Shown in pieces: positions 22,395 to 51,303 of a stretch of DNA of 56,813 bases. Below the pieces are notes generated by a model, which did not search any database, had not been told where the DNA came from, and worked only from the letters and a program-made list of their open reading frames with translations. This stretch comes from Sphaerisporangium sp. (GTDB lineage: Bacteria; Actinomycetota; Actinomycetes; Streptosporangiales; Streptosporangiaceae), in contig JAOPYI010000214.1 of assembly GCA_025964675.1 (NCBI GenBank), positions 1 through 56,813 of the forward strand, given 5' to 3'. The first letter of the stretch is position 1. Each line of letters starts with the position of its first letter. The position numbers and the translations under genes are program-made.

Positions 22395-22462
22395 CCGGCG
22401 CAGGTCAGAGGCGTTGATGTCGCTGCTGGATTCATAACGATTACGTCGGGTGTCCCGGTTCT

Positions 22463-22481
22463 GGTCACGGTTATAGTGACC
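22463..22481. promoter_or_regulatory. Inverted repeat upstream of conservon 1
   Basis: GGTCAC at 22463-22468 and GTGACC at 22476-22481 form a perfect 6-bp inverted repeat around GGTTATA, 80 nt before cvnA1. It is a candidate operator overlapping a promoter for conservon 1. No known regulator is assigned. Confidence 0.4.
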
Positions 22482-22560
22482 TTGTGGTCGAATTGTCCCC
22501 GCTTATGTAGTTATCAGCCATGCCGTCATCCATGCATGGAAGATCGCGGGGGGTGGCGCG

Positions 22561-25500
22561 GTGAGCACAACGGAAACCGAGACCAAGACCGCACTCCAGC
22601 CCGGAACGGGGACCGGAGGCAAGCGCCACAAGCGCCCGGCCGGTCAGGGCTCCCCGGGCCGCCAGCACGGCCGGGGCGCAGTGTCGCGGCTCTCGCTGCG
22701 TAACTGGCGGGTGCCGGCGCGCCTGACGGCGCTCATCCTCGTGCCGACGATCGTCGGCGTCCTGCTGGCGGGCCTGCGCGTGGTGTCGTCGATCGACAGC
22801 GTCGCCACCTACCAGCGGAACGCCGTCGAAGCGGAGATGGCCGGTCATCTGCGCGACCTCAGCGCGGGGCTCGGGTTGGAACGCGACAGGACGATCTGGT
22901 TCCAGACGACCCGCCAGCAGAAAGCCGCGCTGGCCGACCAGCGCAAGCTCGTGGACGCCGCGACCGCCCGGGTGCGCGACGATCTGGCGAAGATCGACGT
23001 CGGATACGGCATCCGCGCCGTCGAGGACGCTCAGCAGGTCGCGAACCGCCTGGACGCCATGGCCGTGATCCGCAAGGGCGGGCAGGCCGTGAAGTACACC
23101 GACGTGATCGCCTCGCTGCTCCGGCTGCACGACGAGATCAGCCAGTCGAGCGTGGACCCGCAGCTGGTGGGGGACGCGCGCGGCCTCACCGCGCTCGCCC
23201 ACGCCAAGGAGGAGGCGTCACAGCAGCGCGGCACGCTCGTCGGCGCGCTCATGCGCGGGCAGCGGTTCACCCCCGACACGCTCGAGGAGTTCATCGCCTC
23301 GCGATCGCGGCAGAAGACCGCGATCAGCACGTTCAACGGCGAGGCCGGAGCCGACAACGGGCGCTTCCTCGCCCAGACGGTCCGAGGCACCCAGGTCGTG
23401 CGGGCAGAGCTGACCAAGTCCTGGGCCATCGCCCTGGCCAGCCGTAACGAGTCCCTGGGCAACGGCAACGGGGTCGCCGCCGCCGTCAAGCAGTGGTTCG
23501 ACGACAGCACCAAGACGATCGGGCTGCTCCAGCAGGTCGAGGCGCGGGTGGCCACGTCGGTCGCCACCCGGGACGCCGCCCTCGAATCCTCGGAACGGCG
23601 CAACGCGATCATCGCGGGGATCCTGATCCTGGCGCTGATCCTGCTGGTCCTCGCCACCACGGTCCTGATCGCCCGATCGCTGGTGAGGCCGCTGCGCAGG
23701 CTGCGCTCGGAGGCGCTGGAGATCGCCGGATTCCGCCTCCCCGCCGTCGTCCGGCGGATGCGAGAGTCCGGGGACGCCGGCGGGGCCTCGGAAATCCAGC
23801 CGATCCTCGTGGGCACCAACGACGAGATCGGCGAGGTGGCCACCGCCTTCGACGAGGTCCACCGGCAGGCGGTGCGCCTGGCCTCCGAGGAGTCGCAGCT
23901 GCGCGGCAACGTCAACTCGATGTTCGTCAACCTCTCGCGGCGCATCCAGACGCTGGTCGAACGCCAGATCTCGCTGATCGACGGCCTGGAGCGCGGCGAG
24001 CAGGACGGCGGCAGGCTGGCCGACCTCTTCAAGCTGGACCACCTCGCCACCCGCATGCGCCGCAACAGTGAGAACCTGCTGGTCCTGGCCGGCCACGAGG
24101 CGGCGCGCAAGCGGAGCCAGCCGGCCAAGCTGGTGGACGTGGTTCGAGCCTCCTTGTCGGAGGTCGAGGACTACGAGCGGGTCAGTGTCAAGGTCCACCG
24201 CAGCTCGGCCGTGGCGGGGCACGCCGCCAACGACGTGGTCCACCTGGTCGCCGAACTGGTCGAGAACGCCCTGGCCTTCTCGCCGGGCAACACCCGGGTC
24301 GTGGTGTCCAGCAGCATGATCGAGGGAGGCGGCGCCCTCCTGGCGGTCAGCGACGCCGGCATCGGCATGACGTCCGAGGAGATGGCCGAGGTGAACCGGC
24401 GGCTGGCCGACCCGCCGGTCGTGGACGTCTCGGTGTCCCGCCGGATGGGCCTGTTCGTGGTCGGACGCCTCGCGCTGCGCCACAACATCCGTGTCCAGCT
24501 CCGGCGCGGTGACTCGGCGGGCCTCATCGCGATGGTTCTCTTCCCGCCGCAGCTCATCTCGGTGGCCGCCGGGCGCGGGCCGGCGCTGCCCCAGCAGGGC
24601 GCCACGCAAGGGGACGCCACCCCGGCACCCGCGTCCAACGGGTCGTCTCCCGCCCTCAACGGCACCGGAGGCACATCCGCGTACAACAGCAGCCCGGCGT
24701 ACAACGGCGCGCCGGCCTCCAACGGCGGCGGATCGGCGCCTGCCGGGTCCTTCGGGGCGTTCGGTGCCCGCGTGCCCGCCTCCGGGTTCACCGGCCCCCT
24801 GCCCGAAGCCTCCGATCCGGTGTACTCCCCGGTCACCGGGCCGGACGGTCCGGCCTTCGGCCCCGTCGGGCCGTCTACCGGGCCGTTCACGCCGTCCGGG
24901 CCGTCTACCGGGCCGTCCACGGAAGCCTTCACGGGGCCGGTGATACGTCCGGCCGAGCAGCCCGCGCCGCCCGCGCGGTCCGGTCCGGCCACGGGCCCGG
25001 TACGGCGGCACGCCGACCGGAGTGTCGCGCCGTCCGCTCCGGCGGGCGCGGAGAGGTGGGCGAACACCGAGGCCGGGAGCGCGGCGGCCGGCGCTTCCGA
25101 GTCGCAGCCGGAGTCGCCGCTGGACCGAGGGGACGAGTTCTTGCCGATCTTCGCTTCGGTCGAGTCGGCGTGGTTCCGCCGTCCCGACGCTCGGGAGATC
25201 GCCGACGGTGGGGGCCAGGGACCGGCGGGTCCACAGAGCGTCCCGCCCGGTCCGGCGAGGCACGCGCAGAGCGCGCCACGGGCCCCGGAGCCCTCGCCAG
25301 GCGCTCCCGGCGGCGGAGCGTGGGGCTCCACGGCCGACAGCGGCCGGCAGGCGGCCGACGCGGTGCAAGATCCCTCCTTGGGGGGCATCACCGCCGCCGG
25401 GTTGCCCAAGAGGACGCCGAAGGCCAACCTTGTGCCGGGATCGGTCGCGGCCCCGTCCACTCCGGTGGCGGCGCCCGCGCCCCGTCCAGAGGTGTCCGCC

Positions 25501-25614
25501 GACCTCATCCGTGCCAGGATGTCGCGCTTCCAGCAAGGGATCCAGCGCGGCAGGGCGGATATCTCGGAGGCCTCGCCCTGGAATCCCGAGACCGATCAAC
25601 CCCGTATTGACTGA
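22561..25614 (+). CDS. cvnA: Conservon sensor histidine kinase CvnA (copy 1)
   Basis: The 1017-aa membrane kinase has a first membrane helix at about residues 58-78 (LTALILVPTIVGVLLAGLRVV) and an extracytoplasmic nitrate/nitrite-sensing-type helical domain to about 345. A second helix lies at 349-373, then HAMP, then the conserved block KLDHLATRMRRNSENLL with His494 as likely phosphoacceptor. The HATPase follows (HLVAELVENALAFSP, DAGIGMT, RRMGLFVVGRLALRH). From about 670 on the tail is Pro/Gly/Ser-rich, but contains three short motifs shared by all three CvnA copies: EFLPIFA(S/A)VES, GLPKR(T/V)PKANLVPGS, and (F/Y)QQG(I/V)R-type near the end. Directly after glnD, separated from cvnB by 23 nt. 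Confidence 0.93.
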   Translation: MSTTETETKTALQPGTGTGGKRHKRPAGQGSPGRQHGRGAVSRLSLRNWRVPARLTALILVPTIVGVLLAGLRVVSSIDSVATYQRNAVEAEMAGHLRDLSAGLGLERDRTIWFQTTRQQKAALADQRKLVDAATARVRDDLAKIDVGYGIRAVEDAQQVANRLDAMAVIRKGGQAVKYTDVIASLLRLHDEISQSSVDPQLVGDARGLTALAHAKEEASQQRGTLVGALMRGQRFTPDTLEEFIASRSRQKTAISTFNGEAGADNGRFLAQTVRGTQVVRAELTKSWAIALASRNESLGNGNGVAAAVKQWFDDSTKTIGLLQQVEARVATSVATRDAALESSERRNAIIAGILILALILLVLATTVLIARSLVRPLRRLRSEALEIAGFRLPAVVRRMRESGDAGGASEIQPILVGTNDEIGEVATAFDEVHRQAVRLASEESQLRGNVNSMFVNLSRRIQTLVERQISLIDGLERGEQDGGRLADLFKLDHLATRMRRNSENLLVLAGHEAARKRSQPAKLVDVVRASLSEVEDYERVSVKVHRSSAVAGHAANDVVHLVAELVENALAFSPGNTRVVVSSSMIEGGGALLAVSDAGIGMTSEEMAEVNRRLADPPVVDVSVSRRMGLFVVGRLALRHNIRVQLRRGDSAGLIAMVLFPPQLISVAAGRGPALPQQGATQGDATPAPASNGSSPALNGTGGTSAYNSSPAYNGAPASNGGGSAPAGSFGAFGARVPASGFTGPLPEASDPVYSPVTGPDGPAFGPVGPSTGPFTPSGPSTGPSTEAFTGPVIRPAEQPAPPARSGPATGPVRRHADRSVAPSAPAGAERWANTEAGSAAAGASESQPESPLDRGDEFLPIFASVESAWFRRPDAREIADGGGQGPAGPQSVPPGPARHAQSAPRAPEPSPGAPGGGAWGSTADSGRQAADAVQDPSLGGITAAGLPKRTPKANLVPGSVAAPSTPVAAPAPRPEVSADLIRARMSRFQQGIQRGRADISEASPWNPETDQPRID

Positions 25615-25637: not shown

Positions 25638-26060
25638 GTGATTGAGCTAAGCCACGAGGCACGCAGGTTCGACTGGCTGATCACGGAGTTCGTCAGCGGA
25701 ACACCGGGCGTGGCGCACGCGGTCGTGGTGTCGGCCGACGGGCTCCGGCTGGCGAACTCCGACGGGTTTCCCCCGGACCGTGCCGACCAGCTCGCCGCCG
25801 TCTCGGCGGGCTTGCTGAGCCTGACCTTGGGCGCGTCCCGCGTGTTCGACGGCGGTGGCGTGACGCAGACCGTCGTCGAGATGCAGCACGGCATCATGCT
25901 GGTCATGGCCATCAGCGATGGGTCGTGCCTGGCCGTGCTGGCGTCCCCCGAGTGTGACATGGGCCTGGTCGCGTACCAGATGACGCTGCTGGTGGAGCGC
26001 GCCGGCCAGGTTCTCACGCCGGCGCTCCGCGCTGAGTTGCAGACGTCCAGGATCCGGTGA
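25638..26060 (+). CDS. cvnB: Conservon roadblock/LC7 protein CvnB (copy 1)
   Basis: The 140-aa roadblock/LC7-domain protein contains GVAHAVVVSADGLRLANSDG, then ADQLAAVSAGLLSLTLGASRVF, and ISDGSCLAVLASPECDMGLVAYQM. In conservons this is the MglB-like partner of the CvnD small GTPase. In S. coelicolor Cvn9, as I recall, these proteins form a membrane-associated complex with the sensor kinase. The GTG start has GAGGAGGG upstream, independent of cvnA. It overlaps cvnC by 4 nt. It is the most diverged of the three CvnB copies here. Confidence 0.95.
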   Translation: MIELSHEARRFDWLITEFVSGTPGVAHAVVVSADGLRLANSDGFPPDRADQLAAVSAGLLSLTLGASRVFDGGGVTQTVVEMQHGIMLVMAISDGSCLAVLASPECDMGLVAYQMTLLVERAGQVLTPALRAELQTSRIR

Positions 26061-26419
26061 TGCTCATGGGTGACGGGACCGAGGACGAGCCCCTCTTCCG
26101 TCCGTACGCCGTCACCGGGGGCCGGGCAGAGCCGAGTTACCACCTCGCAATAGAGACACTTGTCTCATCGGCCCCCATAATGAGCGATGATTTGTCCTTG
26201 CTCACTCCCGAGCAGGAAGCGATCATCGTGCTCTGCCACTCCGTCCGTTCGGTCGCCGAGATCTCCGCGCTGCTGCGGGTCCCGCTCGGCGTGGCCCGCG
26301 TGCTGATCGCCGATATGGCCGACGAAGGTCTGGTTCGCCTGCATCTGCCGAGGCTTGACCAGGGACTACCAGACCACAACCTGCTTGAAAGGGTTCTCAG
26401 TGGACTTCGCAGGCTCTAG
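26057..26419 (+). CDS. cvnC: Conservon DUF742 protein CvnC (copy 1)
   Basis: The 120-aa DUF742 protein has RPYAVTGGRAEPSYHLAIETLV followed by a winged-helix-like half, SVAEISALLRVPLGVARVLIADMADEGLV. It ends in the invariant LLERVLSGLRRL. DUF742 proteins are the third component of conservons and probably bridge kinase and GTPase; their biochemistry is unclear. The GTG start overlaps the cvnB stop (GTGA); ATGs at 26060 and 26066 are alternatives. The last 20 nt also encode the start of cvnD. Confidence 0.93.
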   Translation: MMLMGDGTEDEPLFRPYAVTGGRAEPSYHLAIETLVSSAPIMSDDLSLLTPEQEAIIVLCHSVRSVAEISALLRVPLGVARVLIADMADEGLVRLHLPRLDQGLPDHNLLERVLSGLRRL

Positions 26420-26425
26420 CCGCGG
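26387..26425 (+). other. 39-nt dual-coded cvnC/cvnD junction, identical in three conservons
   Basis: This segment, from GAAAGGG through CTAGCCGCGG, is base-for-base identical at 26387-26425, 41125-41163 and 50576-50614. It encodes the CvnC end (ERVLSGLRRL) and, in another frame, the CvnD start (VDFAGSSRG). It also contains the only ribosome-site-like sequence (GAAAGGG) for cvnD. Confidence 0.85.
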
Positions 26426-26990
26426 GTCGGCGCTGACGTCGACGAAGATCGTCGTAGCGGGCGGCTTCGGTGTCGGCAAGACCACCTTCGTGGGGGCGGT
26501 GTCGGAGATCCTCCCGCTGACCACCGAGGCGGTCATGACCGATGCCAGTGCGGGCATCGACGACCTCGGTCTGACGCCGAACAAGACCACGACGACCGTG
26601 GCGATGGACTTCGGCAGGCTCTCGCTGGACCAGGACCTGATTCTCTACCTGTTCGGCACGCCCGGGCAGCACCGGTTCTGGTTCATGTGGGACGACCTGG
26701 TCCGGGGCGCCATCGGGGCCGTCGTGCTGGTCGACACCCGGCGGCTGGCCGACTGCTTCCCGGCGATCGACTACTTCGAGGAGGCCCAGCTCCCGTTCGT
26801 GGTCGGGATCAACGGCTGGGACGGGCACTACCCGCACGTCGAGCAGGAGGTGCGGGAGGCGCTCACGCTGGCCCCGCACATCCCCATCGTGCGCACCGAC
26901 GCCCGCTCCAGGGACGCCGTCAAATCCACGTTGATCAGGCTCGTGGAATACGTCCTGACCGTCAGGTCGGCTTACGGCCGCACGAGCTGA
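26400..26990 (+). CDS. cvnD: Conservon small GTPase CvnD (copy 1)
   Basis: The 196-aa MglA/Ras-like GTP-binding protein has P-loop GGFGVGKTTFVGA at about residue 18 and a switch region with a conserved run of Thr (NKTTTTVAMDFGR). G3 is GTPGQHRFWFMW. The position of the NKxD guanine-specificity motif reads NGWD (GINGWDG), so the lysine is missing, as in the other two copies. The GTG start lies inside cvnC (20-nt overlap), implying translational coupling. Conservon GTPases work with the CvnB roadblock protein. It is followed immediately by a strong bidirectional hairpin. Confidence 0.94.
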   Translation: MDFAGSSRGSALTSTKIVVAGGFGVGKTTFVGAVSEILPLTTEAVMTDASAGIDDLGLTPNKTTTTVAMDFGRLSLDQDLILYLFGTPGQHRFWFMWDDLVRGAIGAVVLVDTRRLADCFPAIDYFEEAQLPFVVGINGWDGHYPHVEQEVREALTLAPHIPIVRTDARSRDAVKSTLIRLVEYVLTVRSAYGRTS

Positions 26991-27039: not shown

Positions 27040-27996
27040 TCACGAGGAGCCGGCCCACCAAGTTCCCGCGACGAGCTCGGCGACCAGGGTCTCACTCAGC
27101 AGCGCCACCTCCGGGTCGTCGTCACCCGCGTACCTGATGGCGTGGGCGCCCTCCACCGCCCCGCCCACCGCGAGCACGGTGGAGCCCCGCTGCCGCACCC
27201 AGTCCATGGCCTGCTCGTCGTAGCGGGAGCCAGGGAACAGGATCGCCCGGTAGTCGAGGGTCTTGGTGAGGTACACGTCCACGTGCGCCCAGTCGCCCGT
27301 CTCGCAGGCGTCGGCGGGCCGGCGGGGCCCTTCGCGGAACATCAGCGCGGACTGCTCGGCCGACGACAGCCGCTCGGCCGGCGCGATCGTGTAGACGCCG
27401 TGCGGCCCGTCGAGCAGGGCCAGCGCGTCCCCCAGCCACGTGCCCCGGCGGTCCAGCAGGTCCGAGGTGGCGTCGGCGGCCCGGCGTACCAGCCCGGACA
27501 CGCCGGCCCTGGCGCCCGTGAGGCGCCCCTCCAGGGCCAGGAGCAGCGCCACGGTGTGCTGGAAGGTGCGGCAGGACACGCCGCCGCGCTCCTCGCCCGC
27601 CACCATCTCAACGACCAGGTCGGCGCCCTCGGTGACGGGGGAGCCAGGGGTGTTGGTCAGCGCCAGGACGCGGGACTTCCCGCGATGACGCGACAGCGCG
27701 TCGAGGGTCTCGCGGCTCCCTCCTGTGGCCGAGATGGCGACCACGAGCGTGTCCTCGCCGGGCGGGTACCCGAGAGCCGCCGAGCCGTACTCCGCGACCG
27801 CGTCGACGCCGGAGGCGCGCAGCCGCAGCGCCGCCACCCCCGCGGCGTACCGCGAGCTGCCCATCCCGAGGAGGACCACCCGGCGGATCCCCTGCGTGAG
27901 CCCGTCAAACGGGTCCCGCGCGTCCAGGGAGCGGGCCAGCGCCTCGAGTGCCTCCGGCTTGGCCTCGAGGTCGGCGAGGTACAGCTCGGGGTTCAC
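27040..27996 (-). CDS. SIS-domain sugar-phosphate isomerase/deaminase-like protein
   Basis: The 318-aa protein has two SIS subdomains: the first around VVLLGMGSSRYAAGVAAL and VVAISATGGSRETLDAL (residues about 40-110), the second in the C-terminal half. The layout resembles the isomerase half of GlmS and AgaS/FrlB-type deaminases. The GTG start overlaps the upstream kinase stop by 4 nt (GTGA) and has GAGGAG in front. Paired with a glucosamine-kinase-family gene, the likely job is isomerising or deaminating the phosphorylated amino sugar (glucosamine-6-phosphate to fructose-6-phosphate). That role is inference from fold and operon. Confidence 0.85.
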   Translation of the reverse strand: MNPELYLADLEAKPEALEALARSLDARDPFDGLTQGIRRVVLLGMGSSRYAAGVAALRLRASGVDAVAEYGSAALGYPPGEDTLVVAISATGGSRETLDALSRHRGKSRVLALTNTPGSPVTEGADLVVEMVAGEERGGVSCRTFQHTVALLLALEGRLTGARAGVSGLVRRAADATSDLLDRRGTWLGDALALLDGPHGVYTIAPAERLSSAEQSALMFREGPRRPADACETGDWAHVDVYLTKTLDYRAILFPGSRYDEQAMDWVRQRGSTVLAVGGAVEGAHAIRYAGDDDPEVALLSETLVAELVAGTWWAGSS

Positions 27997-29066
27997 GTGG
28001 TCTCCTCAGCGGGGAAGCGGCTGCGCAGGACGCCCATGGGGGCGTAGCGCCATCGGGAGAGGTGGCGGGCTGCGTAGATCAGCTCGCGGCACTCCTGCTC
28101 GATCTCGAACGGGCCGAGCAGCGTCTCGTCGAGGAGCGCGGAGATGCCGTGTGAGGCCAGGCGCTCGCGGTAGGCCGACAGCAGGGCGTCGCGGCCGGTC
28201 GCGGCCCACCGGATAGCCCCCGCCGGGTCGGCGTCTCTGCGCAGGATCGCCACCTGGGCCACGTGTTCGAGGCTGGTGCGGAGCTGCGCGAGGTCGCGGG
28301 CCGCCGGCTGGAACAGGCCGGTCTCCGCGACCGTCGGGTTGCCGTCGAAGTCGATCACGGCGTAGCCGTCGCGCCAGCGGAGCGTCTGGCCGACGTGCAG
28401 GTCGCCGTGGATGCGGATCAGCGGGGCCGCGCTCACGCGGCGGAGCGCGCCGATCTCCCCCAAGAGCATGTCCGCTCGCTCGGCCAGCCAGGCGCCGTCC
28501 TCGCCGCCCGTCAGCTCCAGCGCCTCGCCCAGGGCCCTCTGGGCGCGCGCCGCCCATTCGCCGCCCGGGTGCGCGTTCCGTACAGGGTCGGGGATCGCCG
28601 GCGAGGGGGTGGCCATGGCCGCGTGCAGGTTGGCGGCGAGGCGTCCGAGGTCGGCGGCGAAGGCGGTACGCCCGGCCACCGCCTCGTCCACGCACCACTC
28701 CCAGCCGTCCGTGGCGTCCGGCAGGTAGGCGGTGACCAGGGCGACCAGCGTCTCGGTCCCGTCGGGGGAGCGCGCCGACAGGGCGGCGTACGGTAAGGCG
28801 GTCTCAGTGAAACCGACGGCCGTCAGATGGGCGAAGATCTCAGGGGCGGGCTGGGGGAGCGGAAGCGGCGGCGTGAGCCACTTGACCACCACCTGCTCGC
28901 CCACGACGACAGAGCGGTTCGTCTGGTCGACGTCGAAGCCCCGTTCGGCGGCCGTGACCTGGATGGGAGGCAGAGGATGGAACCGCAGGACCGTGAGGCC
29001 CCCGGGAGGACCGGCGTCGTGCGACAGCGCGCCGACGAGGCGGGCGGTCGTGCCGTCCCCGGCCAC
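27993..29066 (-). CDS. Actinobacterial glucosamine kinase-family protein (aminoglycoside phosphotransferase-like fold)
   Basis: The kinase has an eukaryotic-like/APH fold: the catalytic loop is IRIHGDLHVGQTL, the metal-binding motif VIDFDGNP, and Lys in VVVKWLT. The C-terminal ECRELIYAARHLSRWRYAP closely fits the fingerprint I recall for actinobacterial glucosamine kinases (EC-x-E-x2-YAA, then L-x-x-W-x-YAP). The GTG at 29066 gives 357 aa and leaves the inverted repeat at 29104 upstream. A GTG at 29147 gives 384 aa but would put that repeat inside the gene. First gene of a two-gene operon with the SIS protein. Maltokinase is the alternative assignment, but the fingerprint argues against it. 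Confidence 0.82.
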   Translation of the reverse strand: MAGDGTTARLVGALSHDAGPPGGLTVLRFHPLPPIQVTAAERGFDVDQTNRSVVVGEQVVVKWLTPPLPLPQPAPEIFAHLTAVGFTETALPYAALSARSPDGTETLVALVTAYLPDATDGWEWCVDEAVAGRTAFAADLGRLAANLHAAMATPSPAIPDPVRNAHPGGEWAARAQRALGEALELTGGEDGAWLAERADMLLGEIGALRRVSAAPLIRIHGDLHVGQTLRWRDGYAVIDFDGNPTVAETGLFQPAARDLAQLRTSLEHVAQVAILRRDADPAGAIRWAATGRDALLSAYRERLASHGISALLDETLLGPFEIEQECRELIYAARHLSRWRYAPMGVLRSRFPAEETT

Positions 29067-29103
29067 CGGCGGCCACCTGTGAGACAGAATCCCGCCAGGA
29101 TCT

Positions 29104-29121
29104 GTTGAACTCGGATTCAAC
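29104..29121. promoter_or_regulatory. Candidate TetR operator, kinase/transporter divergent promoter
   Basis: GTTGAA-CTCGGA-TTCAAC is a perfect inverted repeat with a 6-nt spacer between the glucosamine-kinase operon (minus) and the ABC importer operon (plus). Its core TTGAA-N6-TTCAA recurs at 33936-33951 next to the TetR gene, suggesting a shared regulator. Confidence 0.6.
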
Positions 29122-29273
29122 TCAACAACCAAACTACGAGCTAACAATGTCCGGCAAAGTCTTGCTCATGTTGATATGTGCTGCAACACTCCTGCTTTGG
29201 TCTGCCGTGCGAAGGTCAGGCACTGCGGCTTTTTTCGTACCACGGAACCTTAAAAACCTAAGGAGTAGCGGCC

Positions 29274-32124: not shown

Positions 32125-32128
<4 letters not shown>
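31355..32128 (+). CDS. ABC importer permease 2 (PotC-like)
   Basis: The 257-aa permease has six predicted helices, beginning FWATYVFLYTPIIVLVVMSFNAGK. The EAA loop is LEEASRDLGASPLTTFTRITLPTLAPG, and DEFVIAFFTSAPTEPTLPIVIYSMVRFGVTPEINA is a PotC/PotI signature. GTG start, overlapping permease 1 by 8 nt and the ATPase gene by 4 nt (TTGA). It completes a heterodimeric polyamine-type channel. Confidence 0.93.
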
Positions 32129-33189
<1,061 letters not shown>

Positions 33190-42779: not shown

Positions 42780-42843
42780 TTCCACTCCAATTGGGTGAGA
42801 AGTAGCCCCGGGCAGCTTCCCGGGGAGAGGGGCAGGCCTGGTA

Positions 42844-43635: not shown

Positions 43636-44466
43636 TCAGGTTGTCTGCCGGGCTCGCCGGTGCCAGGAAAGGACGCGTCGTTCGACCACCAGGAAGGACG
43701 CGTTCAACACGAAGCCGAGGACGCCGAGGAGCACGATCGCGCCCCACATCCCGGACAGGTCGAAGTTCTGCTGCGTGAACATGAGCTGGTAGCCGATCCC
43801 GTTGGTGCTGCCGACCAGCTCGGAGACCACCATCAGGATCACGGCCAGGGAAAGGCTGAGCCGGACCCCCGCGAAGATCTTGGGCCCCGCCGCGGGCAGG
43901 ATGATGCGGAACAGCCGTTGAGCCCGTCCAAGCCCGAAGGCCTGCGCCGTGTCGGCGTGGACGCGGTCCACGTGGCGCGCTCCGTCGATGGTGTTGATGA
44001 GGATGGGCCAGATCACCCCGTAGACGATCGTCGCCACCTGCATCTGGGTGCCCATCTTGAACAGGATGATGAACAGCGGGATCAGGGTCGGCGGCGGGAT
44101 GGCCCTGCCGAACTCCACGAGTGGGTCGATGTAGCCCGACAGCTTCCGCGAGCGCCCAAGCGCGACCCCGAGGCCGATCCCGAGCACGCACGCCAGCGCC
44201 CACCCGCCGAACAGCCGCGCGAGGCTGGGCAGGAAGTCGCCTAGCGCCCCGTCGGTGAGGAACAGATGGGCGGCCGGACCCGAGAACCACAGCTCGTACA
44301 TGCGCGCGAGGATCTGCGAGGGAGGCGGGAAGTAGGTGGAGCCCGCCTGCCGGGTGCCGAGCTCCCACGCGGCGACCGCGATGGGCACGAGCCACACCCT
44401 GGCGAGCACGGCCAGCAGACCCGCTCGCATGCCCCGTGTCGTCTGTCCCTCGACGGTCGTGGTCAT
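43636..44466 (-). CDS. ABC importer permease (SsuC/TauC-like), first of two
   Basis: The 276-aa permease has about six membrane helices, including LARVWLVPIAVAAWELG, LFGGWALACVLGIGLGVALG and VATIVYGVIWPILINTI. The ATPase-contact loop is TAQAFGLGRAQRLFRIILPAAGPK. ATG 44466 overlaps the other permease's stop by 4 nt (ATGA). The paired permeases are distinct sequences, so the transporter is likely a heterodimer, unusual for this family where one permease gene is the norm. Confidence 0.9.
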   Translation of the reverse strand: MTTTVEGQTTRGMRAGLLAVLARVWLVPIAVAAWELGTRQAGSTYFPPPSQILARMYELWFSGPAAHLFLTDGALGDFLPSLARLFGGWALACVLGIGLGVALGRSRKLSGYIDPLVEFGRAIPPPTLIPLFIILFKMGTQMQVATIVYGVIWPILINTIDGARHVDRVHADTAQAFGLGRAQRLFRIILPAAGPKIFAGVRLSLSLAVILMVVSELVGSTNGIGYQLMFTQQNFDLSGMWGAIVLLGVLGFVLNASFLVVERRVLSWHRRARQTT

Positions 44467-45233
44467 GCCCCCGTCCTCTCGGTGTGCCAGCGGAAGGCCC
44501 ACCGCTGGACGCGTACGAGCAGCATGTTGGCGAGGAGCCCGAGGATCCCCGCCCACAGGGTCGCGGCGAGGATGAGGTCCGTACGGTAGCCAGAGCCCGC
44601 TCGGATCATGAACGCGCCGATCCCGTCCGTGCCGCCGGCCACGAGCTCCGCGCTGATCGCCACGATGAGGCCGGTGGCTGCGGCCAGCCGTACGCCGGTG
44701 AGGACGAACGGCGCCGCGCTCGGCACCGACACCCGTGCCAGTACGGCGAGCCGCCCGAAGCCGAAGCTGCGCAGCGTCTCCTTCGCGACGGGGTCCACGT
44801 CACGCAGCCCGTACATGGTGTTGATGAGCACGGGCCACACGGCGGCGTAGACGATAACGGTGATCTTCACGCCGTGGTCGTACGGGATGAGCAACGTCAC
44901 GAGGGGGAGAAGGGCGACCGAGGGGATCGGCCGCATGAACTCGACCAGAGGGCGCGCGGCGAGTTCGGCCCGGGGAAGGGTGCCGAGCAGCACGCCGAGC
45001 GGGACGGCGATCACGATCGCGGTGAGCAGCCCGGTCGCCCACACGATCACGGTCCCCCAGAGGTCCGTCAGGAACTCCGGGTCGGCCAGAAGGCCCGCGG
45101 CGCCGGCCAGGACCGTGGACATCGGGGGAAGCAGCACCGGATCGATCAGGCCGGACCGCCCCGCCAGCTCGGCGGCGATGAGGAGGACCGCGGCGCCGGC
45201 GGCGCCGCGGACCACCACTCGGCGGTCGATCAT
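44463..45233 (-). CDS. ABC importer permease (SsuC/TauC-like), second of two
   Basis: The 256-aa permease has helices such as GAAGAAVLLIAAELAG, ATGLLTAIVIAVPLGVLLG and ITVIVYAAVWPVLINTM, and the loop ETLRSFGFGRLAVLARVSVPSAAP. ATG 45233 overlaps the lipoprotein stop by 4 nt. A larger open frame upstream lies inside the lipoprotein gene and is ignored. Confidence 0.9.
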   Translation of the reverse strand: MIDRRVVVRGAAGAAVLLIAAELAGRSGLIDPVLLPPMSTVLAGAAGLLADPEFLTDLWGTVIVWATGLLTAIVIAVPLGVLLGTLPRAELAARPLVEFMRPIPSVALLPLVTLLIPYDHGVKITVIVYAAVWPVLINTMYGLRDVDPVAKETLRSFGFGRLAVLARVSVPSAAPFVLTGVRLAAATGLIVAISAELVAGGTDGIGAFMIRAGSGYRTDLILAATLWAGILGLLANMLLVRVQRWAFRWHTERTGA

Positions 45234-46210
45234 TGAGGCAGCGGGACCAGCAGGGGGGTCACGTCGATCTTCTTCGATATGTACCCGTACTCGAGCATCA
45301 GGTCGGCGACGCGCTGGATCCTGGTCGCGCTCAGCGAAGTGGGGTAGGCGCCGAGGTTGATGACGGACGCGACCTCGGGCTTGATCTGGGTGTAGTCCGG
45401 CAGGACGTTCTCGATGGCCTTGCGGTCGCCGGACGCGGCCTGCTGGCCCTTCAGGATGGCGCGCTGGAAGGCGGCCATCGTCTTCGGGTACTTCTTGGTC
45501 CAGTCCTCCGTGGCCGTCCAGCCCGCGATCGGGAAGTCGGCCATCGCGCCGGTCATGGTGTCGGCGATCTTGCGGGCGCCCATGTCCTTCTGCACGCCGG
45601 TGAGGAACGGCTCCGTCAGCCACGCCGCGTCGATCTGGCCGGTCTTCAGCGCGGCGGGCGCCTGCGGGAAGGCCATGGGCATATAGGTCACGTCCTTTTT
45701 CGGGTCGAGGCCCGAGACCCGCAGGGTGGTGCTCACCGCGAGCTCGGCGATGCTGTTCAGCCCGGCGATGGAGATTTTCTTGCCCTTCAGGTCCTTCACC
45801 GACTGGACTGGGGAGTCCTTCGGCACGACGATGTCGAAGACGTCGCTCTTGGCCTGGTAGGTGTCGGCGACGAACCGGAACTTGTCGTTGGTCTTCTCGG
45901 TGGCGGAAATAATCGTGAAGTAGTTGCCGAGGGCTACGTCAAGGGCGCCGCTGAGAAGTTTCGGGATGGCGAACTGCGTGCTCTGGAGGATCTCGGGCTT
46001 GACGGTCAGCCCTTCCTCCTTGAAGTAGCCCTTCTTGTTCGCTATGTAGAGTCCCGCCACGTCGCCGATGGCGAGGACGCCGACGCTGATCGTGGTCTTT
46101 TCCAGCCCGCCGCCGGAGGCGCTCGAACCTGTATTCGAGCTTCCGCACGCCGTGAGTGCCAAAGTGGCCGCTACGCCGATGATGAAGGTACGACCCCTAA
46201 GTCTTCTCAT
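45230..46210 (-). CDS. ABC importer substrate-binding lipoprotein, SsuA/THI5-like
   Basis: The 326-aa lipoprotein has signal RTFIIGVAATLALTAC with lipidation Cys22. The mature domain belongs to the NMT1/THI5-like/SsuA fold: GVLAIGDVAGLYIANKKGYFKEEGL, QSTQFAIPKLLSGALDVALGNY, and VKDLKGKKISIAG. Such proteins bind sulfonates, nitrate, taurine or thiamine precursors; this sequence does not discriminate. It is the first gene of the operon (SBP, permease, permease, ATPase, methyltransferase), transcribed away from conservon 3. ATG 46210; a longer open frame has no signal-peptide logic. Confidence 0.92.
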   Translation of the reverse strand: MRRLRGRTFIIGVAATLALTACGSSNTGSSASGGGLEKTTISVGVLAIGDVAGLYIANKKGYFKEEGLTVKPEILQSTQFAIPKLLSGALDVALGNYFTIISATEKTNDKFRFVADTYQAKSDVFDIVVPKDSPVQSVKDLKGKKISIAGLNSIAELAVSTTLRVSGLDPKKDVTYMPMAFPQAPAALKTGQIDAAWLTEPFLTGVQKDMGARKIADTMTGAMADFPIAGWTATEDWTKKYPKTMAAFQRAILKGQQAASGDRKAIENVLPDYTQIKPEVASVINLGAYPTSLSATRIQRVADLMLEYGYISKKIDVTPLLVPLPQ

Positions 46211-46550
46211 TGAGGTGTCCTTTGAGGTGGGGGAGAAGAGTGCCTGGTGGTCCTGGGGAGACCGCGGTGGCACGGCGAGCGTGAAGCCTAGCGGAGGAAG
46301 ATCCGAACTAACATGAACAAGTCACCTATGTCACGAAACTCGTAAAGAAGTCCAGTTTGACCCGCTATTAGACCTATGTGTAGGTATATGGCTTTGGATC
46401 GCAGTAAAGGTAGATCTCTTGATGTTGGTCAGTTGCGTCGTCCCTGCCATGGGGAACCCGTTCCGCACTACCGAACGTGATTCACATTGATCGAATAACG
46501 GATTAGATCGTTCTAAATACCCGTAGCTGTTGGTCCAACTCATAGGCTTA

Positions 46551-46564
46551 TGCTCCAATTACCC
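46551..46564 (+). promoter_or_regulatory. Conserved promoter-proximal element upstream of cvnA3
   Basis: An exact second copy of TGCTCCAATTACCC (first at 36851-36864). It lies 75 nt before the cvnA3 start, versus 90 nt in conservon 2. Confidence 0.55.
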
Positions 46565-46638: not shown

Positions 46639-49600
46639 GTGAGGACAGCAACAATCGAGAGCGGTCGCGGTACAAAGCCGGACGCGGCCCCGCCGCGCTC
46701 CGACCCGGGTGCTCCCCCCGACCGGCGTCACGGGACGGGAAACTCGGTCGCTCTGCGTAACTGGCGGGTGCGAACCCGCCTTATCGCACTCGTCCTGGTG
46801 CCCACCATGGTGGCGGTCCTGCTCGGTGGCCTGCGGGTGGCGACCTCGGTTCAGAGCGCCACCGAATACGAACGCGTCCGGACCGTGGCCGAGTTCATCA
46901 CGACCCTCGGCGACCTCGCCCACCAGCTCGACGTCGAACGTGACCTCTCGGCGAGGTTCGTCGCCAACGGCCGACGCGGCGGCAAGTCGAAGCTGACCGA
47001 TCAGCAGAACGCCGTCGACTCGGTCGTGCAGATCGTCCAGGACCGCAGGAGCGTGATCGAGCCGGCCCTCGGAGACACCGGCCGCCAGGAGGTCGGCCGC
47101 CTGCTCGACCGGCTGTCGGAGCTCCGCTCGCTTCGCGCGACGGTCAGCGACTCCCAGCTCCCCGCGCTTCCCACCCTCCAGAAGTACTCGCTCGTCCTCG
47201 ACGACCTGCTCACCGTGTTCGACGAGACGGCGCGGGGCAGCACCGACGAAGCCCTGGACGCCAGCGCGTCGGCCCTCGCCTCGCTCTCCCGCGCCGCGGA
47301 GCAGTCGTCCAGGCAGCGAGGTCTCGTGGCCATCGCACTGATCTCCCGCCAGTTCAGCCAGGACCAGCTGGACGCGTTGAACGCCGCCCGCGCCCAGCGG
47401 GACAGCGAGCTCCAGGCGTTCTTCTTCAGGGCGACGCTCGCCGAGCGGCAGATGTACGCCGACATCGTCAGCGGCCAGAAGATCGACCGGGCAGCGGGCC
47501 TGGTCGCACGAGTGCTGGAGCTCACCAGGCAACGCCAGCAGCTGAGTGGCCTCGGCGGCGGCACGAACGACGTCGACTTCTGGTTCGACGCCGCCAGCGA
47601 GGGGCTCAACCGCATGCACGACGTGCAGCGGGCCCTGGGCCGTTCCATCGTCGACCGGGCTGCCGAGCTGGCACGCAGGGACCAGAGCCAGGCCGCGGTC
47701 AACATCGGCGTGGTCGCGCTCCTTCTCATCCTGGTCCTCGCCATCACCGTCGTCATGGCCCGATCGCTCGTCACCCCGCTCCGGCGGCTCCGGGGTGAGG
47801 CGCTGGAGATCGCCGGCCGCCGGCTCCCCGAGATGGTGCAGAAGCTCCGGGAATCCGAGGGCAACACCGGTCCCCCAGACGTACAGCCCATCGGCGTCGC
47901 GTCGGCCGACGAGGTGGGGGAGGTGGCCAGGGCCTTCGACGAGGTCCACCGCGAGGCGATCCGTCTCGCGAGCGACGAGGCCCAGCTGCGCAGCAACGTC
48001 AGCGCCATGTTCGTGAACCTCTCCCGGCGCACGCAGACCCTGGTCGAGCGGCAGATCACCCTCATCGACGGCCTCGAGCACGGCGAGCAGGACGACAAGC
48101 GGCTCGGAGACCTCTTCAGGCTCGACCACTTGGCCACCCGCATGCGCCGCAACAGTGAGAACCTCCTGGTCCTCGCCGGGCAGGAGCCCGCACGCCGCTG
48201 GAGCCAGCCGGTGCCGCTGCTGGACGTCACCCGGGCCTCGCTGTCGGAGGTGGAGAACTACGAACGGGTGGCGATGCACGTCCCCTCAGGCATCTCCATC
48301 GCCGGGCAGGCGGTCAACGACGTCATCCACCTGCTGGCCGAGCTGGTGGAGAACGCGATCTCTTTCTCGCCCCGCGAGACGAGGGTCACCATGTCGGGCA
48401 ACCGCATCGACGGCGGCGGAGTGATGATCTCGATCACCGACGCCGGCATCGGCATGACCGACGAGGAGCTCGCCCAGACCAACTGGCGGCTCGCCAACCC
48501 GCCCGTCGTCGACGTCTCGGTGTCACGGCGGATGGGCTTGTTCGTGGTAGGCCGTCTCGCGCTGCGCAACGGCATCCGCGTGCAGCTCCGGCGGCACGAC
48601 ACCGGCGGCCTGACCGCGATGGTGCTGCTGCCTGAGTCGCTCATCGGCATGCCCATCCACTCAGGCGGCGGCGGCACTCCCACGGCCGGGCAGGCGTTCG
48701 CGGGCTCCGGCGTCCCCGCCTGGGCCGGCGCCGGGCAGCCCGCGGGCCACAGCCTGTTCGCCTCGACCGGCGGCACGCCGGACTTCCAGCCGACCCCCGG
48801 CGCCTTCGGTGGCTCGTTCACCGAGCCGGGCGCGTTCGGCTCGTCCAACGGGGCGGGGCCCCTGGGCCCGACGACGGGCGGCGGTCTCGCCGGTCCCCCC
48901 ACGGGCCCCGGAGGGTACGGAGGCCCGCCGACCGGTTCCGGCGGAGGGTACGGAGGCCCGGCCACGGGCTCGGGGGGGTTCTACGGCCCGGGCTCCGGCG
49001 GTTTCGGCGGCCCCGCCACGGGGTCGGGCGGTTTCGGCGGCCCCCCCACGGGGTCGGGCGGTATCGGCGGCCCGCCGACCGGCTCGGGCGGCGGGTACGG
49101 CGGACCTCCCACCGGCTCGGGCGGGTACGGAGGCTCGGGTTCCGACCCCTTCGGCGGCCCTGCCACCGGTCCCGGCGTTCCGGGTGGGTACGGCCCACCT
49201 GCAGGTCCGAGCTCCTTCGGAGGACCCGCCACAGGACAGAACGGGCTCGCCGGCCCGCCGACCGGGCCAGGCGGCGGAGGCGGCGATCTGCCGGTCCGCC
49301 TGCGCCCTCGCCGCTACGAGACCTCGGATCTGGACGCCGTCACCGGCCCGCTTCCCGCGGTGCGGTCCTCTCCCATGGAGCAGCAGGAGGAGTTCCTGCC
49401 GATCTTCGCATCCGTCGAGTCGGCCTGGTTCCGGCGCGTGGACGAGCAGGACAAGGAGAACGCCTCCACCGGATGGCAGGAGATCCCCGCCGACGCCGGA
49501 TGGCAGGCGGCGGCGGCCGTCCAGGAGCCCGTCCGCGACGGCACCACCGCGGCGGGCCTGCCCAAGCGGGTGCCCAAGGCGAACCTCGTGCCCGGATCCG

Positions 49601-49797
49601 CGGGCACTCCCGAGGCCGCCGCCACCGCGCTGCCGGCCATGCCGGCGCTCTCTCCCGACCGGGCACGCAACCGCCTGTCGAGCTTCCAGCAGGGCATCCG
49701 GCAGGGCCGGGCGGTCGCCCGTGGCGAGCTGAGCGAGGACGAGGTGGCGTACAACGCCGAGATGAGGCGCATTCAGGGCGAGAAGGAGGACACGTGA
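46639..49797 (+). CDS. cvnA: Conservon sensor histidine kinase CvnA (copy 3)
   Basis: The 1052-aa paralogue has membrane helix 1 near residues 50-70 (LIALVLVPTMVAVLLGGLRV), an extracytoplasmic helical sensor domain, helix 2 near 355-380, HAMP, phosphoacceptor candidate His497 in RLDHLATRMRR, and HATPase with HLLAELVENAISFSP, DAGIGMT and RRMGLFVVGRLALRN. The tail is Gly-rich with GGPPTGSGG repeats and ends in the same three short motifs as the other copies. The GTG at 46639 (GTGAGGACAG) matches cvnA2's start. It overlaps cvnB by 4 nt. Confidence 0.93.
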   Translation: MRTATIESGRGTKPDAAPPRSDPGAPPDRRHGTGNSVALRNWRVRTRLIALVLVPTMVAVLLGGLRVATSVQSATEYERVRTVAEFITTLGDLAHQLDVERDLSARFVANGRRGGKSKLTDQQNAVDSVVQIVQDRRSVIEPALGDTGRQEVGRLLDRLSELRSLRATVSDSQLPALPTLQKYSLVLDDLLTVFDETARGSTDEALDASASALASLSRAAEQSSRQRGLVAIALISRQFSQDQLDALNAARAQRDSELQAFFFRATLAERQMYADIVSGQKIDRAAGLVARVLELTRQRQQLSGLGGGTNDVDFWFDAASEGLNRMHDVQRALGRSIVDRAAELARRDQSQAAVNIGVVALLLILVLAITVVMARSLVTPLRRLRGEALEIAGRRLPEMVQKLRESEGNTGPPDVQPIGVASADEVGEVARAFDEVHREAIRLASDEAQLRSNVSAMFVNLSRRTQTLVERQITLIDGLEHGEQDDKRLGDLFRLDHLATRMRRNSENLLVLAGQEPARRWSQPVPLLDVTRASLSEVENYERVAMHVPSGISIAGQAVNDVIHLLAELVENAISFSPRETRVTMSGNRIDGGGVMISITDAGIGMTDEELAQTNWRLANPPVVDVSVSRRMGLFVVGRLALRNGIRVQLRRHDTGGLTAMVLLPESLIGMPIHSGGGGTPTAGQAFAGSGVPAWAGAGQPAGHSLFASTGGTPDFQPTPGAFGGSFTEPGAFGSSNGAGPLGPTTGGGLAGPPTGPGGYGGPPTGSGGGYGGPATGSGGFYGPGSGGFGGPATGSGGFGGPPTGSGGIGGPPTGSGGGYGGPPTGSGGYGGSGSDPFGGPATGPGVPGGYGPPAGPSSFGGPATGQNGLAGPPTGPGGGGGDLPVRLRPRRYETSDLDAVTGPLPAVRSSPMEQQEEFLPIFASVESAWFRRVDEQDKENASTGWQEIPADAGWQAAAAVQEPVRDGTTAAGLPKRVPKANLVPGSAGTPEAAATALPAMPALSPDRARNRLSSFQQGIRQGRAVARGELSEDEVAYNAEMRRIQGEKEDT
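48840..49270 (+). repeat. Gly-rich repeat region in cvnA3 tail
   Basis: About ten degenerate units of the type GGPPTGSGG(F/Y/I) encode a disordered tail. Unlike the cvnA2 repeat, the units differ at many bases, so the array is older. Confidence 0.75.
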
Positions 49798-50216
49798 AAG
49801 AGCTGAGCCAAGGCGCCCGCGGGGTCAACTGGCTGATCACCGACTTCGTCCGAGGCGTGCCGGGGGTGGCTCACACGGTGGTCGTGTCCTCCGACGGGCT
49901 GCCACTGGCCTACTCGGAGGGCTTCCCCAAGGACAGGGCCGACCAGCTCGCGGCGGTGGCCGCGGGCCTGATCAGCTTGACGCAGGGCGCTTCCCGGGTA
50001 TTCGAGGGTGGTGCGGTCACGCAGACCGTGGTGGAGATGCAACGAGGCCTGCTGCTGATCATGTCGGTCAGCGACGGTTCCTGCCTCGCCGTGCTGGCCG
50101 CTCCCGACTGTGACATGGGTCTGGTGGCGTACCAGATGACGCTGATGGTCGAGCGCGCCGGTCAGGTCCTGACCCCGGCCGTGCGCGCCGAGCTTCAGGC
50201 GTCGTCTCCGCGGTGA
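49794..50216 (+). CDS. cvnB: Conservon roadblock/LC7 protein CvnB (copy 3)
   Basis: The 140-aa protein begins MKELSQGARGVNWLITDFVRGVPGVAHTVVVSSDG and is otherwise almost identical to copy 2. Both copies align without gaps at a constant 9544-nt offset. The GTG overlaps the cvnA3 stop (GTGA). Roadblock partner of CvnD. Confidence 0.95.
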   Translation: MKELSQGARGVNWLITDFVRGVPGVAHTVVVSSDGLPLAYSEGFPKDRADQLAAVAAGLISLTQGASRVFEGGAVTQTVVEMQRGLLLIMSVSDGSCLAVLAAPDCDMGLVAYQMTLMVERAGQVLTPAVRAELQASSPR

Positions 50217-50608
50217 ACTCCATGGGCGGCGGCCCCGGATGGGAGGACGGGTTACGCCACTACCAGCAGGAGCCCTCCTCGCCGGTCCGGCCTTTCACGG
50301 TCACCGGAGGACGCTCGGCACCGCGGACGAACCTGGCCATGGAGACGCTGGTTCACTCCACGATTCCGGCTTATCAAGATATTTCCGGCTTGATCCCGGA
50401 GTACCAGGCGATCAACAGCCTCTGTCGCCAGGTACGTTCCGTCGCCGAGATCTCCGCGCTCCTGCGGGTCCCGCTCGGCGTCGCCCGGGTGCTCATCTCG
50501 GACATGGCCGCCGAAGGCCTGGTCCAGTTGCACCAGCCGCAACTGGACGCCGGGAAGCCGGATCTCAACTTGCTCGAAAGGGTTCTCAGTGGACTTCGCA
50601 GGCTCTAG
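50213..50608 (+). CDS. cvnC: Conservon DUF742 protein CvnC (copy 3)
   Basis: The 131-aa DUF742 protein has RPFTVTGGRSAPRTNLAMETLV, SVAEISALLRVPLGVARVLISDM and the terminal LLERVLSGLRRL. The GTG overlaps the cvnB stop by 4 nt and the last 20 nt overlap cvnD. Length is intermediate between copies 1 and 2. Confidence 0.93.
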   Translation: MNSMGGGPGWEDGLRHYQQEPSSPVRPFTVTGGRSAPRTNLAMETLVHSTIPAYQDISGLIPEYQAINSLCRQVRSVAEISALLRVPLGVARVLISDMAAEGLVQLHQPQLDAGKPDLNLLERVLSGLRRL

Positions 50609-51179
50609 CCGCGGCGGGTTGACCTCGACGAAGATCGTCGTCGCGGGTGGGTTCGGCGTTGGCAAGACCACCTTCGTGGGCGCGGTGTCGGAGATCGTCC
50701 CCCTCACGACAGAGGCGGTCATGACCGACGCCAGCACCGGCATCGACGACCTGGGCCTCATTCCACTTAAGACCACCACCACGGTGGCGATGGACTTCGG
50801 CCGCGTGTCGCTGGACAGCGAGCTGATCCTCTACCTGTTCGGCACGCCGGGCCAGCACCGGTTCTGGTTCATGTGGGACGACCTTGTCCGGGGCGCCATC
50901 GGAGCCGTCGTGCTGGTCGACACCCGGCGGCTCGCCGACAGCTTCCCCGCGGTCGACTACTTCGAGGAGGCCAAGCTGCCGTTCGTCATCGGGCTCAACG
51001 GATGGGACGGGGAGCACCCCCATCAGGACGAGGAGGTGCGGGACGCCCTCACGCTGGCCCCGCACATCCCGATCGTACGGACGGACGCGCGCCAGCGTGA
51101 ATCGGTGAAGAGCACGCTGATCGCCCTGGTCGAGCACGCTCTGACGACGCGGGTCTCGGTACCCGGCTGGAGGAGCTAG
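50589..51179 (+). CDS. cvnD: Conservon small GTPase CvnD (copy 3)
   Basis: The 196-aa GTPase has P-loop GGFGVGKTTFVGAVSEIV, KTTTTVAMDFGR, GTPGQHRFWFMWDDLVRG and NGWD in place of NKxD. Within the switch region PLKT replaces PNKT of copies 1 and 2. The GTG start is inside cvnC. It shares a 50-nt identical tract with copy 2 around the P-loop. It is followed by a large nested hairpin and ffh. Confidence 0.94.
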   Translation: MDFAGSSRGGLTSTKIVVAGGFGVGKTTFVGAVSEIVPLTTEAVMTDASTGIDDLGLIPLKTTTTVAMDFGRVSLDSELILYLFGTPGQHRFWFMWDDLVRGAIGAVVLVDTRRLADSFPAVDYFEEAKLPFVIGLNGWDGEHPHQDEEVRDALTLAPHIPIVRTDARQRESVKSTLIALVEHALTTRVSVPGWRS

Positions 51180-51186
51180 CGGGCTC

Positions 51187-51250
51187 CGACCTCCCAGCCC
51201 GCCGCTGGATTCGCGTGACCGGCCCGCGAAGCGGATAGGCTGGGAGGTCG
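51187..51250 (+). terminator. Large nested hairpin between cvnD3 and ffh
   Basis: CGACCTCCCAGCC at 51187-51199 pairs perfectly with GGCTGGGAGGTCG at 51238-51250. Inside, CCGC pairs with GCGG and TTCGCG with CGCGAA around a 9-nt loop. There is no U-tract. It is a probable terminator of conservon 3, or a structured leader or small RNA ahead of ffh (53 nt before its start). Confidence 0.6.
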
Positions 51251-51303
51251 AGTCGCAGACGTAAGACCCCGGACGACCCGTAGCGCAGAGGCTGGCCAAT
51301 CAC

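Follow-up and report, generated by a model that had tools for sequence, protein, structure and literature searches.

Conservons are actinobacterial G protein systems, among them Cvn9, Cvn8 and Mfp, that encode the same four proteins, CvnA to CvnD, in the same order. In Cvn9 these proteins interact with each other and CvnD is a GTPase (PMC8510531; this and all later statements from the literature rest on parts of the papers cited). Four such genes in that order occur three times between glnD and ffh in the DNA described here, a 56,813-nucleotide stretch of Sphaerisporangium sp. (assembly GCA_025964675.1, contig JAOPYI010000214.1, positions 1 to 56,813 of the forward strand; contig G000:C89 of a 7.77 Mb genome in 313 contigs), which is referred to as the window and is known from its sequence alone. 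Adjacent duplicated conservons have been mentioned previously (PMC4316618), and in Streptomyces coelicolor a tandem cvnABCD pair is formed by cvn1 (CvnA1, SCO5544) and cvn2 (CvnA2, SCO5540), of which CvnA1 is reported to act positively on antibiotic production and on the aerial mycelium (PMC9739842). The Streptomyces loci retrieved here (CvnD identity 72-74%), in which the conservons also form a tandem pair, were equated with it by arrangement and by the locus table of that paper; in locus L203 the pair lies beside leuB- and ilvE-type genes, and unlike the present array it is not placed between glnD and ffh.

Conservons elsewhere can have accessory inputs, CvnF (GAF) and CvnE (P450), which go with a CvnA without a NIT domain (PMC13343842), whereas here a solute-binding protein (SBP) accompanies a CvnA that bears one. 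According to that paper, what NIT-type conservons sense remains to be tested, and its main text has no occurrence of 'ABC transport', 'substrate-binding', 'solute' or 'tandem'. Neither an SBP role for conservons nor any combination of a conservon with an SBP and an ATP-binding cassette (ABC) transporter was found in the literature, which was searched in open papers, so that this absence is no proof. SBP-dependent sensor kinases act through a classical response regulator and use no GTPase, unlike the array in the window. They resemble it in that the SBP stimulates the kinase and is often encoded by a neighbouring gene, as for GltB-GtrS and for CuaD with a two- or three-component system (PMC7927077, PMC10384115, PMC11113362). 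For GlnH-GlnX-PknG of Corynebacterium and Mycobacterium, an SBP lipoprotein is proposed to signal via a helical-bundle membrane protein to a cytoplasmic effector, and the GlnH-GlnX interaction itself is stated not to have been demonstrated (PMC9769921); the effector there is a Ser/Thr kinase, however, and there is no roadblock/GTPase module.

We propose, with a probability of roughly 55%, that the glnD-ffh block is an inherited sensor array with several inputs and a shared output, in which SBPs present their ligand state to CvnA. CvnA would be a membrane sensor with a diverged extracellular NIT-fold domain, coupled via CvnB (roadblock) and CvnC (DUF742) to the near-invariant small GTPase CvnD, and most sensors would be paired with an SBP lipoprotein encoded beside or near them, PotD-like for cvn2, SsuA/NMT1-like for cvn3, and OpuAC-, SBP_bac_1- or Peripla_BP_6-type in relatives. 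Such an SBP would serve the sensor as well as the ABC importer: the CvnA ectodomain may read it in its ligand-bound form, and CvnA would then alter the state of CvnB/CvnC. Through this it would set the nucleotide state, GTP or GDP, of a CvnD pool that is largely shared, and so gene expression. We infer physical SBP-CvnA contact, the ligand identities and the common CvnD output. The SBP types listed are candidate inputs for NIT-type conservons.

Solute-binding protein genes beside the conservons

A preliminary description of the window had reported three complete conservons on the plus strand alternating with two transport cassettes, at a density suggestive of a signalling island. The arrangement is borne out, as the Pfam domains of CvnA (NIT, HAMP and HATPase_c), CvnB (Robl_LC7), CvnC (DUF742) and CvnD (ATP_bind_1) were each found three times in A-B-C-D order, with an ABC-importer cassette in each of the two spaces between conservons. 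The clustering is beyond chance, because only six DUF742 matches occur genome-wide and three of them are here, and because the three CvnD proteins are 84-90% identical to each other while the other two CvnD matches of the genome are 52-54% identical to CvnD1. The further suggestion of a functional tie between the conservons and the cassettes stands in part. The tie is not random, but the constant partner is the SBP and not the whole cassette, and each sensor may monitor the substrate.

Genes were called on all fetched array contigs, and the interval from each called cvnD to the next cvnA or cvnB was read, which gave 62 intervals in 33 genomes. Fifteen of these held no called gene (up to ~1.5 kb), and an SBP gene was present in all 47 others. 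A looser recount that included intervals after incomplete units found one in 52 of 53 non-empty intervals, so an absolute rule of 'SBP or empty' fails once, in genome G056. Together with pairing at other genomic sites (below), these counts place the linkage of SBP and sensor genes beyond chance, and the linkage is well supported. Where an interval holds a single gene this is an SBP gene in 4/4 cases, PotD-like in G051, G055 and G033 and SsuA-like in G003. Pfam checks of representatives identified the interval SBPs as SsuA/NMT1-like, PotD-like and OpuAC-like, and the OpuAC cassette further comprises genes for an ATPase and a double permease, joined in several genomes by one for a GMC oxidoreductase. 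In G053 and G045 an SBP_bac_1 lipoprotein gene lies without transporter genes between an inverted cvnA and cvnB, and each of the two genomes has a paralogue of it at another site (75-78% identity). The two-copy arrays of G059, G019 and G034 lack the Ssu-flanked conservon, and no close SsuA was found anywhere in these genomes (best matches 32%, 28% and none). A regular expression for ABC permeases missed most of the known ones (31 of 183 recovered) and was left out of the counts.

It could be argued that the cvnBCD repeats make a recombination-prone site, which gathers passenger genes by chance and is then kept by descent. The variable copy number of the array, several incomplete units, the close kinship of the array genomes and the SBP-free passengers of the G056 interval would fit this, as would two further gene insertions without an SBP inside units, both of transposase genes (G003 and G012). 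An SBP in 47/47 and 52/53 non-empty intervals is hard to reconcile with chance, however, as are the four SBP families within arrays, with a fifth in the sister clade, and the Ssu pairing at other sites. We therefore consider this explanation improbable.

The position of the PotD-like SBP gene separates the SBP from its transporter. A search of 40 genomes recovered this gene in 26, each of which has a single copy at E 1e-40. In four of them (G055, G033, G024 and G075), in which both places were read, the sole copy lies between cvnD1 and cvnA2, while the operon of SIS, glucosamine-kinase-like and PotBCA genes is at another locus without an SBP; there, the kinase-like gene and potB, which flank the SBP gene in complete cassettes, are separated by ~155-270 bp of intergenic DNA. 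A split is indicated in G029 and G072 by the positions of potB and SBP alone, and in G059 and G053, whose arrays are without Pot genes, the Pot cassette elsewhere keeps its SBP. Since the Pot operon has been relocated without its SBP in the split genomes, it is the SBP and not the transporter that the conservon retains, and the linkage thus survives relocation and gene splitting. The species tree is weak at the nodes that decide between one and two Pot splits, and no number of events is given. In these natural cases, sensing by the SBP could be told apart from transport. Among named loci, L167 (Herbidospora mongoliensis), L172 (Acrocarpospora corrugata) and L171/L190 (Microtetraspora) may have the split arrangement or lie close to genomes that do. 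Of the relocated PotA reading frames (L271, L272), that of G055 measures 618 residues at the locus edge and has a long acidic low-complexity insert, and that of G033 is likewise enlarged.

Retention of the SBP without its transporter is best explained if the SBP is a co-receptor. In a more detailed version, which we hold to be slightly less likely than not, interchangeable SBPs would be dedicated co-receptors: each NIT-type CvnA would read its own SBP, whose gene would have been acquired, copied or withheld from an importer operon to this end, and several sensors, some without a CvnB or CvnD of their own, would feed a common CvnD pool. Bacteria would then have a bank of receptors for several ligands, built on a Ras-like switch. 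A serious rival is that the cassettes are regulatory targets, the conservon controlling the neighbouring importer, as is common among sensor systems, and sensing something else. The gaps between divergent ssuA and cvnA genes are long (~400-800 bp in most loci, though the true starts may lie further upstream than those called), an upstream element is common to cvnA2 and cvnA3 (below), and CvnC has been proposed to be helix-turn-helix-like (PMC8510531), all of which such control would accommodate. As it leaves unexplained both why the SBP alone stays when the importer operon is elsewhere and why lone SBPs occur, we regard it as unlikely, though less so than a chance gathering of passengers.

The pairing recurs where conservons lie outside the arrays. 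Outgroups carry the related conservon at other genomic sites, and in 9/19 of these loci the gene next to cvnA on its upstream side is a divergent ssuA; a few of the other ten stop at or near the conservon (e.g. L135, L152). The genome-wide best SsuA match is no more than ~11 kb from the fetched conservon in 10/20 outgroups (G054, G023, G042, G001, G077, G032, G060, G061, G002 and G011), and in G071, one of the other ten, it is ~5 kb from a second CvnD copy. SsuA-conservon pairing was also seen in Saccharopolyspora spinosa, Rhodococcus rhodnii and Actinoallomurus purpureus. In the sister conservon clade a Peripla_BP_6-type SBP gene directly follows cvnD in 6/6 loci (Pfam-confirmed in 5/6), and among non-array conservons with an SBP within three genes the nearest is always in position one (23/23 units, one genome counted twice). 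Specificity of SBP for CvnA was sought in the sequences and is not claimed, because the NIT domains of SsuA-paired outgroups are barely nearer to cvn3 than to cvn2 (e.g. 31.9% vs 29.7%). In loci L134, L142 and L199, the last from a Nocardiopsis, a VanY-type D-alanyl-D-alanine carboxypeptidase gene is divergently upstream of the related cvnA, in the place of the SBP. In L254 and L257 a conservon of another subfamily is directly followed by an SBP_bac_1-type gene and two permease-motif genes in the same direction.

A number of observations weigh against SBPs as the inputs of these sensors. Within the arrays, the G056 interval, which runs from a unit of cvnA and cvnC to the following cvnA, has BetI-type TetR and DUF418 genes and no SBP; 15 of 62 intervals are without a called gene; cvn1 has no adjacent SBP on its glnD side; several genes separate the PotD-like SBP from cvnA2 in genomes of the window type; and G030 has SsuA-like genes (47-50%), yet its array contigs showed no Ssu cassette. 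Because the array genomes are related, the interval counts also represent far fewer independent events. Outside the arrays, 10/20 outgroups, some of them broken at contig ends, have their best SsuA match away from the conservon that was fetched. No modelled SBP type was present within three genes in 14/20 further relatives, in 14/17 control conservons (3/17 have one), in 4/9 named non-Streptomycetaceae units, or in any of 42 Streptomycetaceae units, including the S. coelicolor-type pair; most of the Streptomycetaceae loci start with the first cvnA, which leaves its upstream side unseen. The background of SBPs in 0/551 genes upstream of ffh is only a rough control, because the SBP models were seeded from conservon-linked SBPs, which understates SBPs in general, and because it covers one genomic region. 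In Pseudomonas, moreover, neighbouring sbp and sensor-kinase genes are not always linked (PMC11113362).

Descent and distribution of the array

The three copies in the window have diverged unevenly. In addition to the close similarity of CvnD, the pairwise identity is 76-94% for CvnB and 61-71% for CvnC, and in CvnA it rises from 26-30% in the NIT ectodomain to 65-72% in the HAMP/DHp segment and 70-82% in the ATPase. CvnD3 is 96% identical to a CvnD of Sphaerisporangium corydalis. In a FastTree analysis of CvnB, CvnC, CvnD and the CvnA core (192 units), all 85 array copies form one clade (support 0.935), as expected of local duplicates. Copies from different genomes mostly cluster by position; the 30 glnD-side copies are monophyletic (support 1.0), while ffh-side copies belong to at least two clades and support is low at some deep nodes. 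From this grouping by position the duplications appear to be older than the radiation of these genera. The tree rules out recent duplication or gene conversion within genomes as the main pattern, although a few pairs (G003, G053) do group by genome.

The protein at the right flank, which we take to be Ffh, as it was named in the preliminary description, was found in 79/80 genomes of the family including the source, and the upstream DNA of the other 78 was fetched and searched with the window genes as probes. Conservon genes were directly upstream of ffh in 32/34 loci of one group, the other two being uninformative (112 and 137 bp upstream). Counting the window, conservon genes are thus beside ffh in 33/33 informative genomes of the clade, including G027 and G074 of the same genus, and in 0/44 of the remaining family genomes (fetched stretches of 0.7-18.5 kb). 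Fifteen of these 44 have a detected glnD upstream of ffh, at a distance of at most 409 bp in 11. When Ffh, GlnD and AmtB were used to build a tree with 22 array-less genomes, the 35 genomes of the group, the window's own and the two uninformative ones included, formed one clade (support 0.777). Named loci with conservons by ffh or glnD include Nonomuraea, Streptosporangium, Herbidospora, Acrocarpospora, Microtetraspora, Microbispora, Planomonospora, Planotetraspora and Sinosporangium. The clade-wide occurrence and the tree rule out a recent, strain-specific acquisition of the island. An interval empty in close relatives, or conservons scattered in the tree without local duplication, had been named as signs of chance co-location, and neither was found.

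Related CvnD genes also occur in the array-less genomes of the family, at sites away from ffh (68-78% for most of the best matches). The copy number of the array varies, with one to five CvnD seen per genome, contig breaks included. The gene glnD was not found in G030 and G076 (L125, L126), in which the array persists, and in G034 (L052) no glnD was seen between glnK and cvnA1, the array still being there. Transposase genes of IS605 OrfB type and IS4/5 type (L120, 15560-16684; L021, 1406-2242) lie inside conservon units of G003 and G012.

Sensor ectodomain, proposed shared output and nitrogen

An AlphaFold2 model of the CvnA3 ectodomain, built from 97 sequences, is all-helical with a mean predicted local distance difference test score (pLDDT) of 96.6, and its only matches in the PDB at E <=0.001 are two NasR chains (4akk, E 9.8e-8 and 1.3e-7). 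A NIT fold is indicated by both the Pfam NIT match and the template modelling (TM) score of 0.85, by query, against 4akk. The pair E35-R36 is invariant in 97/97 aligned ectodomains. NasR binds its ligand through conserved arginines; in the aligned ectodomains R36 (97/97) and R162 (80/97) are conserved, and these may be counterparts.

On the output side, five units (G052, G038, G004, G064 and G056) keep cvnA and cvnC, with the kinase motifs intact, and are without cvnB or cvnD. Because the output genes are also conserved, this suggests that several sensors may be able to use the GTPase of a neighbour.

The NasR likeness raises another explanation, that the NIT domains bind a small nitrate- or nitrite-like ligand themselves and report nitrogen status, in which case the SBPs would be incidental and the neighbourhood of glnD would matter. 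It would be in keeping with the fold, with the invariant E35-R36 and with the family names of the cassettes, by which they would carry nitrogen-containing substrates. This explanation is very doubtful, however, as no GlnR-like site was found within one mismatch upstream of any cvnA in the window, and as proximity to glnD is confined to one clade. The scan, for which a pattern was assumed for the GlnR site, gave 7 matches within one mismatch against 5.5 expected, four of them at 18191-18248 before amtB, and nitrogen control via GlnR was ruled out on these counts. A meaningful link to the nitrogen operon, beside which the preliminary description placed the conservons, is also not supported by the outgroups, which carry a related conservon, often with SsuA, elsewhere in the genome, or by five class-survey genomes of one Streptomyces-like genus, in which the related pair is 42-57 kb from ffh. 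A sigma-70-family factor (regions 1.2 to 4) is encoded at 17130-18032, upstream of amtB, and proteins of its cluster are encoded there in ~12 array genomes.

An identical 14-mer, TGCTCCAATTACCC, lies upstream of both cvnA2 and cvnA3. It has 4 matches within 2 mismatches against 0.4 expected, and variants recur in relatives. The blocks upstream of cvnA1 (window positions 22430-22490) differ from this element; they are conserved across genera and comprise GTAACGATT, ATAACGATT here, plus GACCTTGTGGTC. With the shared element upstream, the starts of cvnA2 and cvnA3 are likely to be the GTG codons at 36954 and 46639, rather than the first starts of their open reading frames (ORFs).

Genes of the window

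Table 1. Genes and upstream elements from glnD to ffh, in window positions, with the matches on which each assignment is based.
Feature	Position	Strand	Evidence
glnD, left flank	20037..22394	+	NCBIfam PRK03381 1029 bits
cvnA1, NIT-HAMP-HATPase sensor kinase-like	22561..25614	+	NIT 1.2e-33, HATPase_c 2.9e-8; LPKR at 948
cvnB1, roadblock/LC7	25638..26060	+	Robl_LC7 7.7e-23
cvnC1, DUF742	26057..26419	+	DUF742 1.5e-32
cvnD1, Ras/MglA-like GTPase	26400..26990	+	ATP_bind_1 2.1e-31; start from gene calling
SIS-domain protein, cassette 1	27040..27996	-	Pfam SIS 1.8e-9
glucosamine-kinase-like protein, cassette 1	27993..29147	-	NCBIfam NF041273 1.3e-78, below its cut-off
PotD-like solute-binding lipoprotein, candidate cvn2 co-sensor	29274..30410	+	SBP_bac_8 7.4e-28; PDB PotD/PotF chains; lipobox LAAC
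ABC permease, PotB-like	30424..31362	+	BPD_transp_1
ABC permease, PotC-like	31355..32128	+	BPD_transp_1
ABC ATPase, PotA-like	32125..33189	+	ABC_tran, TOBE_2; TIGR01187 351 bits, just under cut-off
TetR-type regulator	33219..33986	-	TetR_N 1.4e-6
UDP-glycosyltransferase	33964..35253	+	UDPGT 1.3e-17
aminobutyraldehyde-dehydrogenase-like protein	35329..36759	+	NCBIfam PRK13473 620.5 bits, cut-off 615
TGCTCCAATTACCC element upstream of cvnA2	36851..36864	+	identical 14-mer upstream of cvnA3
cvnA2	36954..40253 (ORF opens 36942)	+	NIT 3.9e-41, HATPase_c 9.6e-11; LPKR at 1032
cvnB2	40250..40672	+	Robl_LC7 4.7e-25
cvnC2	40816..41157	+	DUF742 1.1e-35; start from gene calling
cvnD2	41138..41734	+	ATP_bind_1 3.3e-32; start from gene calling
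O-methyltransferase, cassette 2	41775..42785	-	Methyltransf_2 1.1e-44
ABC ATPase, NrtCD/TauB/SsuB-like	42844..43626	-	ABC_tran; NCBIfam matches below cut-offs
ABC permease, TauC/NrtB/SsuC-like	43636..44556	-	BPD_transp_1 5.4e-28
second ABC permease, cassette 2	44463..45236	-	BPD_transp_1 1.1e-16
SsuA/NMT1-like solute-binding lipoprotein, divergent to cvnA3, candidate cvn3 co-sensor	45230..46273	-	NMT1_2 1.6e-27; SsuA_fam 105 bits, below cut-off; lipobox LTAC
TGCTCCAATTACCC element upstream of cvnA3	46551..46564	+	identical 14-mer upstream of cvnA2
cvnA3	46639..49797 (ORF opens 46576)	+	NIT 2.1e-40; LPKR at 995; ectodomain modelled at 46834-47697
cvnB3	49794..50216	+	Robl_LC7 3.1e-24; start from gene calling
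cvnC3	50213..50608	+	DUF742 6.3e-34
cvnD3	50589..51179	+	ATP_bind_1 4.9e-31
ffh (presumed), right flank	51304..52860	+	family search with the protein: one match in each of 79/80 genomes

The HAMP matches of the three CvnA proteins score 24.5, 25.6 and 22.2 bits against a Pfam cut-off of 25, so that two are just under it. All three proteins have, as LPKR, the C-terminal LPxR motif of conservon kinases (PMC4316618). A lipobox is present in both window SBPs and in most relatives, and is absent in some rows where the called start is possibly wrong. Cassette 1 is of mixed strand, with the SIS, glucosamine-kinase-like and TetR genes on the minus strand and the PotD-like SBP, two permeases, ATPase, UDP-glycosyltransferase and aminobutyraldehyde-dehydrogenase-like genes on the plus strand. 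Cassette 2 lies wholly on the minus strand, with the O-methyltransferase gene and SsuB-, SsuC-, SsuC- and SsuA-like genes.

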